A stretch of 64,000 nt of DNA from Hyphomicrobiales bacterium. GTDB taxonomy: Bacteria; Pseudomonadota; Alphaproteobacteria; Rhizobiales; Beijerinckiaceae. Positions 52,175 to 55,727 of the stretch are shown in pieces; the stretch's first letter is position 1, and each line of letters opens with the position of its first letter. The notes beneath the pieces are model-generated. The model worked only from the letters and a program-made list of their open reading frames with translations, ran no database searches and was not told the DNA's origin. The DNA lies in the NCBI GenBank assembly GCA_004144595.1, contig SEEM01000013.1, positions 29,609-93,608 on the forward strand, in the 5' to 3' direction. The position numbers and the translations under genes were made by a program.

Positions 52175-54010
52175 TCACAAAGCCCGGCAGGCTTCCTCCA
52201 GCCAGGCCTTCGCTTCCCCTTCGACCTGCGGCGAGAGTTTCTCCCAGACCGTGGCGTGATAGGCGTCGATCCAGGCGATCTCGCCGGCATCGAGCATATC
52301 CTTCTCGATCAGGGTGCGCTCATAGGGACACCAGGTGATCGTCTCGAAGCCGTAGATCGTCCGCTCGGCGCCGGGGATCCGGCGTTCCTCGACGACGATC
52401 AGGTTCTCGATGCGGATGCCGTATTCGCCTTCCTTGTAGTAGCCCGGCTCGTTGGAGAGGATCATGCCTGGCTCCAAGGGTGTGGTGCCGAGCTTGGACA
52501 AGCGCTGCGGCCCCTCATGCACCGAGAGATAGCTGCCGACGCCATGGCCGGTGCCGTGGTCGAAGTCGAAGCCGCCCTGCCAGAGCGGCAGGCGCGCGAA
52601 GGCATCGAGTTGCGCGCCCGAGGTGCCCTTGACGAAGACCAGCCGCGAGATCGCGAGATGGCCCTTGAGCACGCGGGTATAGCGGTCGCGCATCTCGGCG
52701 GTCGGTGTGCCGATCGCCATGGTGCGGGTGATGTCGGTGGTGCCGTCCTCGTACTGGCCTCCTGAATCGACCAGGAAGATGCCGGGCTCCAGCCTGCGGT
52801 TGCTCGCCTCGCTGACGCGGTAATGCGGCAGCGCCGCGTTGGGGCCGGCGCCAGCGATGGTGGTGAAGGAGACGTCCTTGAGCAGACCGGTCTTCATGCG
52901 CTCGGCCTCGAGCGCGGCGACCGCGTCGATCTCGGTCAGATCGCCCTTCGGCGCCTCGCGCGCCAGCCAGGAGAGGTAGCGCACCATGACGGCGCCGTCG
53001 CGCAGATGGGCGTTGCGCGCGCCGTCCAGCTCAGCGGCGTTCTTGCGCGCTTTCATCAGGGCGATCGGATCGGCGCCCGCATCGGGCGTGCCGCCGGCCT
53101 CGCGTATCAGGGTCGCGAGTGCGGAGGCGGCGGTCGTGGCGTCGAGCCGGACCTTTGCCTTGGCTGCGCCGAGCTTCGCGATCTGTCTGTCGAGCTCGGC
53201 CGGAGGAGCGATCTCGCCAACGGCACCGATCGCGTCGCCCGCTTCGTTGGTGATCTTCTCCGGCGCGAGGAAGACGGTGGGGCGGCCCTCGCGCGGGATG
53301 ATCGAATAGCCCAGCGGCAGCGGCGTGTGCTCGACATCGCCGCCGCGGATGTTGAAGACCCAGGCCAGCGCATGCGGATCCGAGACGACGAGCGCGTCGA
53401 CTTTGGCCTCGGTCAGCGCCTTCTGGATGCGGGCGAGCTTCAAGACGCTGTCCTCGCCGGCTAAGGCGGCCGGGTGAGCCTTGACCGGCGCCGCGGGCGG
53501 GGCGGGGCGGTCGCTCCAGAGCGCGTCGATCGGGTTGGTCTTGACGGCGACGAGATTGCCGCCGGCTGCGGCCACTGCCTTTTCGAGCCGGGCGAGACCA
53601 TCGACCGTGTGCAGCCAGGGATCATAGCCGAGCTTGCCGCCGGCCGGCAGGTTCAGCTCGACCCAGCGCTCCAGCGGCGTTTCCTCCATCCGGACCGGCG
53701 TGACGACGGCGGTGTCGGTCTGCTCGGCCGACTGAATGGTGTAGCGGCCGTCGACGATCAGCGCCGCCTTGTCGGTGAGCACCACGGCATTGCCGGCCGA
53801 GCCGGTGAAGCCGGTCAGCCATGCCAGGCGGGCCATATGGGCGGGGACATATTCGCCCTGGTGCTCGTCGGCGCGCGGGATGACGAAGCCGGCGAGACAC
53901 AGCGCGGCTAGCGCCTTGCGCAGGGCGGCGACGCGGCCCGCAACCAGCTTCGGGTCGCTCGGTTCGGAGAAGGACTGGAAACGGCAGGTCGGCAGGGTCG
54001 AATCGGTCAT
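52175..54010 (-). CDS. M24-family aminopeptidase P (Xaa-Pro aminopeptidase)
   Basis: FLVDSGGQYEDGTTDITRT, FDHGTGHGVGSYLSVHEGP, LSNEPGYYKEGEYGIRIENL; ATG 54010. Confidence 0.95.
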   Translation of the reverse strand: MTDSTLPTCRFQSFSEPSDPKLVAGRVAALRKALAALCLAGFVIPRADEHQGEYVPAHMARLAWLTGFTGSAGNAVVLTDKAALIVDGRYTIQSAEQTDTAVVTPVRMEETPLERWVELNLPAGGKLGYDPWLHTVDGLARLEKAVAAAGGNLVAVKTNPIDALWSDRPAPPAAPVKAHPAALAGEDSVLKLARIQKALTEAKVDALVVSDPHALAWVFNIRGGDVEHTPLPLGYSIIPREGRPTVFLAPEKITNEAGDAIGAVGEIAPPAELDRQIAKLGAAKAKVRLDATTAASALATLIREAGGTPDAGADPIALMKARKNAAELDGARNAHLRDGAVMVRYLSWLAREAPKGDLTEIDAVAALEAERMKTGLLKDVSFTTIAGAGPNAALPHYRVSEASNRRLEPGIFLVDSGGQYEDGTTDITRTMAIGTPTAEMRDRYTRVLKGHLAISRLVFVKGTSGAQLDAFARLPLWQGGFDFDHGTGHGVGSYLSVHEGPQRLSKLGTTPLEPGMILSNEPGYYKEGEYGIRIENLIVVEERRIPGAERTIYGFETITWCPYERTLIEKDMLDAGEIAWIDAYHATVWEKLSPQVEGEAKAWLEEACRAL

Positions 54011-54176
54011 GGCGGGGTCCGGCTTAAGCGTGTCGCATCGTCGCCGCGCACTCGCGAAAGCGCCAGCGCAAATGCGTCGAATTGGGAATGCCTGTTCGGT
54101 GGGATCACGCTGCCTGCGGATGCCGCATTGTGCCGTTTGGTTATGCAATCTACGCAAACGTTAACGGATATCGGCG

Positions 54177-54236
54177 TTTCGCATGCGTTTTCTGCATATC
54201 TCGCATATGCGAACATATCTTCTCGCAAGTGCGAAA
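54177..54236. promoter_or_regulatory. Array of three related dyads: CGCATGCG, TCGCATATGCGA, TCGCAAGTGCGA
   Basis: Centres at ~54183.5, 54206.5, 54228.5 (spacing 23 and 22 bp); upstream of small ORF at 54309. Confidence 0.75.
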
Positions 54237-54308
54237 TAGCCCCACCTTAGTCACATAAGAGAACGAGGAAGCGACCGGGACTGTCCTTCGTTTTTCGGAG
54301 ATAGACCC

Positions 54309-54551
54309 ATGACCTATGTGCTTGATAATGCCGACGTGCTGCCCGTACCGGTTCGGACGCGTGGCGAAACCCGGGCCAGCCAGCCTGGTCTGATGCAGCG
54401 CTTCTATGCCGCGCTGATCGCGAGCCGCTCGCGCTCCGCAGACCGCCAGTTGCGCGCCCGCAATCTCCTCGTCAACGAGGCAGAGATGGTGCTGGGCGGC
54501 TTCCCGTCCGCGACGCTGTCGAGCGACGTCTCTCTGCCTTTCAATCGCTGA
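54309..54551 (+). CDS. 80-aa hypothetical protein
   Basis: Complete ORF after the three-dyad region; RFYAALIASRSRSADRQLRARNLLVNEAEMVLGG; no family recognised. Confidence 0.65.
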   Translation: MTYVLDNADVLPVPVRTRGETRASQPGLMQRFYAALIASRSRSADRQLRARNLLVNEAEMVLGGFPSATLSSDVSLPFNR

Positions 54552-54607
54552 ATTCACGCTGCCGCGGAATTGAGCTGCGCAGCAGACAACATTCAAGGAC
54601 CTTAGCC

Positions 54608-54736
54608 ATGATCGCCATCATCAAGCACATCTACGAACAGATCGCCGACGCCGTGAAGTTCACCGCCGCCGTCTGGCACGATGCCCGCAGCCTGCAGGCC
54701 GATGCCGAGAAGAAGTACGGCTATATCGCCTTCTGA
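54608..54736 (+). CDS. 42-aa small protein MIAIIKHIYEQIADAVKFTAAVWHDARSLQADAEKKYGYIAF
   Basis: Complete ATG-TGA ORF 56 bp after the 80-aa ORF, preceded by AAGGA, followed by a terminator; absent from ORF track because of size. Confidence 0.6.
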   Translation: MIAIIKHIYEQIADAVKFTAAVWHDARSLQADAEKKYGYIAF

Positions 54737-54779
54737 GCGACCTGATAACGGCCTCGCGCTTCCTCGGAAGCGCCGGAGG

Positions 54780-55727
54780 TCAGGCAAGGCGGCGCGGCCT
54801 CTGGGCTGCGCCGCCTTTTTTCATGACCAGCGTCGCCCAGCCTTCGCGTTGCGAATGACTGGCGAGATAGACGCCCTGGTGGCGATAGGTCGCGACGACG
54901 CCGGCGACATCCATCACCAGCAGGCCCGACAGGACCAGCGTGCCGTTCGACGAGAGTACGCGCGCGATCGAGGGGGCTAAGCGTTTCAGCGGGCCGGCCA
55001 GGATATTGGCGAAGACGAAATCGAAATGGCCGGGGCGGTCGGCCTTGGCGTGGCGCAGGCCCGGCGCGACATAGAGATCGAGCGCGTTGGGCGCATGGTT
55101 GAGCCGGGCGTTATGTGCGGAGACTTCGACCGCGACCGCGTCGATATCGCCGGCGACGACCTTGCGCTTGATCTGCTTGGCCAGCGCCAGCCCGAGAATG
55201 CCGGTTCCGGTTCCGATATCGATTCCGTGGCGCGGGCGGCGCTTCTTCAATTCGGCATCGAGGGCGAGCAGGCAGCCGGCGGTGGTGCCGTGATGGCCGG
55301 TGCCGAAGGCGAGCGCGGCCTCGATCTCGATGGCGACATCGTTGACGCGCACCACGTTCCGATCATGCGCACCATGGACGAGCACGCGGCCGGCGCGAAC
55401 GGGCTTCAGTCCATCCAGGCTGTTGGCGACCCAGTCCTTGGTGTTCACCGTCGTGAAGGGCGTCTTGTCGACGATCTCGCCGACGATCGGGCGCAGCAGG
55501 TCGCGCACCGCTTCCTCGTCGGGCGGGGTGGCGAAATAGATCTCGACCTTCCAGGGTATGTTCAGCGACAGCGTGGTGATGCCGTCCTCGACTTCGAAGG
55601 CGGAAATCGCCGTCTCCGTGGGGTCGAAGATCTCGCCCAGCAATTCGGTGAGGGTCCGGGCCTGTTCGCCGGAGGTCGAGAGTTCGAGGACGGTCGCGAC
55701 CGTCGCTGGCAGAAGGCCTTCGCGCAT
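54780..55727 (-). CDS. prmA: Ribosomal protein L11 methyltransferase
   Basis: LAFGTGHHGTTAGCLLALD, IDIGTGTGILGLALAK, FDFVFANILAGPLKRLAPSI. Confidence 0.94.
   Translation of the reverse strand: MREGLLPATVATVLELSTSGEQARTLTELLGEIFDPTETAISAFEVEDGITTLSLNIPWKVEIYFATPPDEEAVRDLLRPIVGEIVDKTPFTTVNTKDWVANSLDGLKPVRAGRVLVHGAHDRNVVRVNDVAIEIEAALAFGTGHHGTTAGCLLALDAELKKRRPRHGIDIGTGTGILGLALAKQIKRKVVAGDIDAVAVEVSAHNARLNHAPNALDLYVAPGLRHAKADRPGHFDFVFANILAGPLKRLAPSIARVLSSNGTLVLSGLLVMDVAGVVATYRHQGVYLASHSQREGWATLVMKKGGAAQRPRRLA
54786..54822 (+). terminator. Rho-independent terminator for the + strand small ORFs, lying inside the 3' end of prmA
   Basis: AAGGCGGCGC-GGCCTCTGGGCT-GCGCCGCCTT-TTTT. Confidence 0.85.

Follow-up and report, generated by a model that had tools for sequence, protein, structure and literature searches.

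Between pepP and prmA in the 64,000-nucleotide stretch of DNA analysed here (the window), which belongs to the genus Bosea (own genome 5 Mb), lie two small open reading frames (ORFs) preceded by a series of short dyads, raising the question of whether these ORFs form a genuine operon, what they encode and how they are controlled. The gene order runs from a divergent pepP-like aminopeptidase P gene (52175-54010, minus strand), the upstream anchor of synteny, through P80 (80 amino acids; 54309-54551, plus strand) and P42 (42 amino acids; 54608-54736, plus strand) to a rho-independent terminator (54786-54817, or 54786-54822 at its widest, plus strand), which comprises a 14-pair stem with 11 G-C pairs and then a T run, and a convergent prmA-like ribosomal protein L11 methyltransferase gene (54780-55727, minus strand). 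A single copy of P80 was present in each of 64 of the 67 Bosea-group genomes, with P42 downstream of it in all 64 loci, starting 263-351 bases past the P80 start, with pepP and prmA flanking every Bosea-group locus. The compact operon of two small ORFs and a terminator that had been proposed from the window alone (the original prediction) is thus a real, conserved two-gene operon, so far without a name, that has two convincing operators together with an ultra-conserved leader and is retained by almost all sequenced Bosea species.

Both ORFs show conservation at the amino-acid level, their insertions and deletions comprise whole codons, ribosome-binding sites precede each of them, and dN is lower than dS for both genes in nearly all comparisons, which were made among close relatives. 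Judged by these patterns of substitution, both P80 and P42 evolve as coding genes, consistent with the two translated small proteins originally proposed. The same features argue against a reading of the locus as a non-coding RNA or an artefact with untranslated ORFs; the small size of the ORFs, the missing database matches and several weak, sub-threshold Rfam matches would fit such a reading, but Rfam gave nothing over threshold and we regard it as highly improbable. Among close relatives, synonymous divergence in P42 (54608-54736) is far below that in P80, which may mean that this part of the RNA is under an additional constraint. In one genome (G177), P80 has apparently been lost, so that promoter, operators and a portion of the leader run directly into P42, and because this genome retains these elements without P80, P42 appears to be separable from it.

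Neither protein had been recognisable at first sight, and searches of Pfam and NCBIfam likewise gave no match to P80 or P42. AlphaFold predicts a single helix for each, spanning residues 28-61 of P80 with moderate confidence and residues 2-37 of P42 with a pLDDT of 70. Profile searches placed P80 in a wider context, with relatives in 104 of 298 genomes of the family, representing 23 of 43 genera, and with nearly all of the inspected loci positioned between pepP and prmA. A short P42-like ORF follows most of these relatives within the family; outside it the second cistron is mostly absent, and the first order-level profile search, performed with P42, returned little outside Bosea. When the profile was widened, the small protein was detected in 66 of 229 genomes of the order, and 25 of 28 inspected order-wide loci adjoin pepP and/or prmA even though the search ignored position. 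Comparison of the Bosea P80 profile with these order-wide orthologues returned a probability of 97.1 and an E value of 5e-11 over residues 23-76, indicating that P80 is a divergent representative of an unnamed pepP-small protein-prmA family found across much of the Rhizobiales. The description of the locus as undescribed therefore holds for the two Bosea proteins with respect to Pfam and NCBIfam, with the qualification that P80 belongs to an order-wide syntenic family.

The closest domain candidate for this family is DUF1127 (PF06568). Its model gave no match to P80, P42 or the Beijerinckiaceae relatives, and matched 3 of 17 distant orthologues weakly, the best scoring 23.1 bits where the cutoff is 23.3, such that the order-wide family appears marginally DUF1127-like. 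SMc01834 of Sinorhizobium meliloti was considered as a P80 orthologue and rejected, as it is a peroxiredoxin. DUF1127 proteins reportedly work via protein partners (PMC12501420). Because P80 is small, has a basic helix and weakly resembles DUF1127, it is probably a basic helical adaptor that acts on a protein or RNA partner.

Closer inspection of the region upstream of P80 confirmed the sequences, positions and centre spacings of the three dyads that had been described, namely CGCATGCG at 54180-54187, TCGCATATGCGA at 54201-54212 and TCGCAAGTGCGA at 54223-54234, with centre-to-centre distances of 23 and 22 bp. Across 58 aligned genomes the second and third of these (operators 2 and 3) have mean conservation of 0.91 and 0.97, respectively, with conserved outer bases and a variable centre, the pattern that contacts of a dimer with two half-sites would be expected to leave. 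Although the centres vary, operators 2 and 3 stand 22 bp apart without exception (58 of 58 genomes), and the exact pattern TCGCANNTGCGA is present in 22 of 22 non-redundant Bosea upstream regions compared to 0.015 in shuffles. Dyad 1 has a mean conservation of 0.83, its first bases reaching just 0.40 and 0.64 across the same genomes, and the invariant bases in its vicinity form another dyad, ATGC-N7-GCAT (54183-54197), of which ATGC (54183-54186) and GCAT (54194-54197) are each conserved at 1.00. Of the three phased dyads originally proposed, dyads 2 and 3 consequently retain the predicted cooperative-type spacing, whereas dyad 1 is only half conserved and finds no support as an equal third operator. 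Further upstream, TATGC and TTAA(C) (54142-54166) are also almost invariant in Bosea, and TTAAC resembles a CtrA half-site.

The exact 12-base operator pattern occurs only at the two operator positions in the whole 64 kb. Six matches in the Bosea genome to which the window belongs, compared to 4 for the control, do not amount to enrichment on their own; however, the 15-base version, TCTCGCANNTGCGAA, was found at 47 other places in 67 Bosea-group genomes compared to 7 control matches, counting intergenic and other positions alike in genomes that are related rather than independent, and the notion that TCGCA-N2-TGCGA sites arise by chance was rejected on this basis. These sites include several orthologous sets, located close to the gene of a HAMP-domain protein in 11 genomes, to ppdK in 5, to an aldehyde dehydrogenase gene in 5, to genes for a response regulator and for a MarR regulator in 4 each, and to the malate dehydrogenase gene in 2. 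In the eleven Bosea genomes with the first of these sets, TCGCA-N2-TGCGA precedes the HAMP-domain gene, which is chemoreceptor-like. Because TCTCGCANNTGCGAA recurs near other genes in this manner, TCGCA-N2-TGCGA is likely the site of a regulator with its own regulon. We noted no XRE/RamB-like gene beside the locus, in agreement with the expectation that the regulator is not encoded alongside the operon, and none of our results point to a regulator of the XRE/RamB-like kind that had been suggested speculatively; a literature search for the operator sequence returned nothing relevant. What had been named as counter-evidence to the original prediction (dyads that are not conserved, no other sites and untranslated ORFs) did not materialize, the first two being contradicted directly by these data and the third by conservation.

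To which mode of control these operators belong depends on their placement relative to the promoter. A consensus promoter scan made no call at P80; however, alignment with TATATT, TACCTT and TATCTT in relatives points to CACCTT (54243-54248, plus strand) as the putative -10 element, which would place the transcription start near 54255. We propose that a dimeric regulator binds operators 2 and 3, two helical turns apart, and that its occupancy of operator 3 most likely represses transcription. Repression is the likelier mode because operator 3 overlaps the inferred -35 and spacer, as sites of this kind do at the PHO4 and ppdK promoters, where TCGCA-N2-TGCGA follows TTGACA at core-promoter distance in the placement of a repressor site; this positional evidence is indirect, and operator 2 alone could serve activation. 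Were the regulator instead an activator that recruits RNA polymerase through both operators, the fixed two-turn spacing of two sites upstream of a weak -10 would be readily explained, as would the reach of operator 3 to the -35 in the manner of class II activation. With respect to the inferred start, however, the centre of operator 3 falls near -28, inside the spacer, and the similar overlap with the core promoter at PHO4 and ppdK speaks for repression as well, leaving activation an unlikely alternative.

PhaR is a storage-polymer regulator that senses stored polyhydroxybutyrate. The recognition core of its site in S. meliloti, where ppdK is among its targets, is YGCRNYGCR (PMC12542648). We observed this core upstream of P80 relatives in 33 of 51 other Beijerinckiaceae (8.2 in shuffles, largest 15), in 17 of 28 regions from other families (5.5, largest 12) and in 6 of 7 from the Bosea sister clade (1.1), and in other genera it often stands at the position of operator 3. 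Upstream of the core Bosea P80 genes, YGCRNYGCR is found in 4 of 22 regions, which is the shuffle level (3.6). The simplest reading of these sequences is that TCGCA-N2-TGCGA replaced YGCRNYGCR in the Bosea lineage, such that the gene would be under PhaR in most relatives and the Bosea lineage would have swapped its site.

This replacement requires that PhaR itself does not recognize the Bosea operators. If Bosea PhaR bound TCGCA-N2-TGCGA as well, one base wider than its usual site, nothing would have been replaced and the operon would remain responsive to polyhydroxybutyrate. Such dual recognition would account for the Bosea sites standing where relatives carry PhaR-type sites and for the TCGCA-N2-TGCGA site at ppdK in the sister clade, given that ppdK is a PhaR target in S. 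meliloti (PMC12542648); moreover, PhaR is present in 67 of 67 Bosea-group genomes (143 of 149 genomes in the family), and a study of B. diazoefficiens has suggested PhaR sites with other gap lengths (PMC10888616). Against this, the main Bosea phasin promoter keeps two ordinary YGCRNYGCR sites that the P80 locus lacks, which led us to reject canonical PhaR at Bosea P80, and the sister clade carries both kinds of site side by side at this locus, approximately 20 bp apart. A PhaR-type site near the other TCGCA-N2-TGCGA sites was found at 2 of 47, no more than at random positions, and was rejected as a general partner. We consider binding of both sites by PhaR unlikely, and retain the replacement of YGCRNYGCR by TCGCA-N2-TGCGA as the preferred reading.

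Downstream of the putative start lies a leader block of 37 bases (54255-54291, plus strand) that is almost invariant across Bosea. Nearly all of its positions have conservation of 0.93-1.00 in 58 genomes, compared to approximately 0.63 in the upstream flank and 0.70 at P80 third codon positions, so that the leader surpasses the genes in conservation and is the most conserved element of the locus, although it was absent from the original prediction. A scan of 85,462 species for an exact 21-base piece of the leader returned 38 stretches, 36 of them from named Bosea or unplaced Rhizobiales or Beijerinckiaceae records, one in a Chloroflexi metagenome-assembled genome (MAG) that is apparently a chance match, and one in the Methylobacterium sp. 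MAG DS1.3.43. The leader-bearing contig of the latter is Bosea DNA, and this MAG is probably mislabelled or mixed. With 3 mismatches allowed, a search of 398 genomes of the order returned the leader in Bosea only. The shorter core GGAA-CG occurs in 26 of 55 Beijerinckiaceae relatives compared to 4.0 in shuffles. A known RNA family was rejected for the leader, as no Rfam family exceeded its gathering score at the leader or locus and the matches obtained were weak and below threshold.

The leader can fold into a hairpin, GGG.CUGUC...GAUAG.CCC (54277-54308, plus strand), which pairs the Shine-Dalgarno sequence GGAGA (54297-54301) and is adopted by the majority of 25 distinct Bosea leaders. Of these leaders, related to one another in sequence, 22 fold better than the mean of shuffles of their variable part, with a mean z of -0.96; for leaders taken one at a time the advantage over shuffles is small (z about -0.6), and a competing 5' hairpin exists. 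The folding signal over the ribosome-binding site is suggestive only. No double compensatory changes were found among Bosea leaders, because one arm of the hairpin never varies. We propose that the transcript starts near 54255 with this fixed leader, and that its pairing with the P80 ribosome-binding site would limit translation until relieved. The near fixation of all 37 positions, including unpaired ones, is more than a stem alone would require and, together with the weak folding signal, would also suit a leader that is recognized by a small RNA or by a protein binding either RNA or DNA, with no switch at the ribosome-binding site. That 22 of 25 leaders surpass the shuffle mean, mostly through the same hairpin over the ribosome-binding site, and that relatives in two other genera form a similar hairpin with different loops, argue against such a target, which we consider rather unlikely.

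Collectively, our best explanation of the locus is an operon repressed through operators 2 and 3, with translation limited by the leader, P80 acting as a helical adaptor, P42 as a second, separable helical protein and a PhaR site having been replaced; we judge the chances of this whole being correct as evenly balanced. A bolder account, which we advance tentatively and consider unlikely, is that an order-wide small regulatory protein, under PhaR in most lineages, passed in Bosea to a putative other repressor through a one-base change in spacing, with the ultra-conserved leader added as a second, independent control. The locus offers a test case for how an operator may pass between regulators by a change of spacing, and the list of TCGCA-N2-TGCGA sites could serve to identify the new regulator. 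In addition, the family gains a fixed address between pepP and prmA, by which members can be found where sequence fails, and the 37-base leader presents an element constrained more strongly than the genes that follow.

Leaders that mask a ribosome-binding site are a general class of cis-acting RNA. The Bosea hairpin resembles this class in pairing the Shine-Dalgarno sequence in most variants, and differs from it in that the leader has no Rfam match and that no ligand, temperature element or compensatory changes were found. The DUF1127 proteins, represented for example in Agrobacterium and Sinorhizobium (PMC12501420, PMC12218461), resemble the family described here in being small, arginine-rich and alphaproteobacterial, and the order-wide orthologues share A-R-x-R-Q-A ... 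L-D-D ... G-Y-x-R with them. One S. meliloti DUF1127 gene also has a regulatory leader; that leader acts via an upstream ORF, whereas no such ORF was identified at the Bosea locus. LdtR, a MarR-family protein of Liberibacter, is similarly a global regulator with a dyad site, but was rejected as the regulator here since its published site is A/T-rich (ATATTCCTTGTATTTTAA; PMC5481520), unlike TCGCA-N2-TGCGA in Bosea. In the PhaR/AniA regulon (PMC12542648, PMC10888616), PhaR binding is known from genes other than P80; P80 orthologues in many other genera likewise have YGCRNYGCR near the promoter, whereas Bosea P80 instead carries TCGCA-N2-TGCGA, one base wider.
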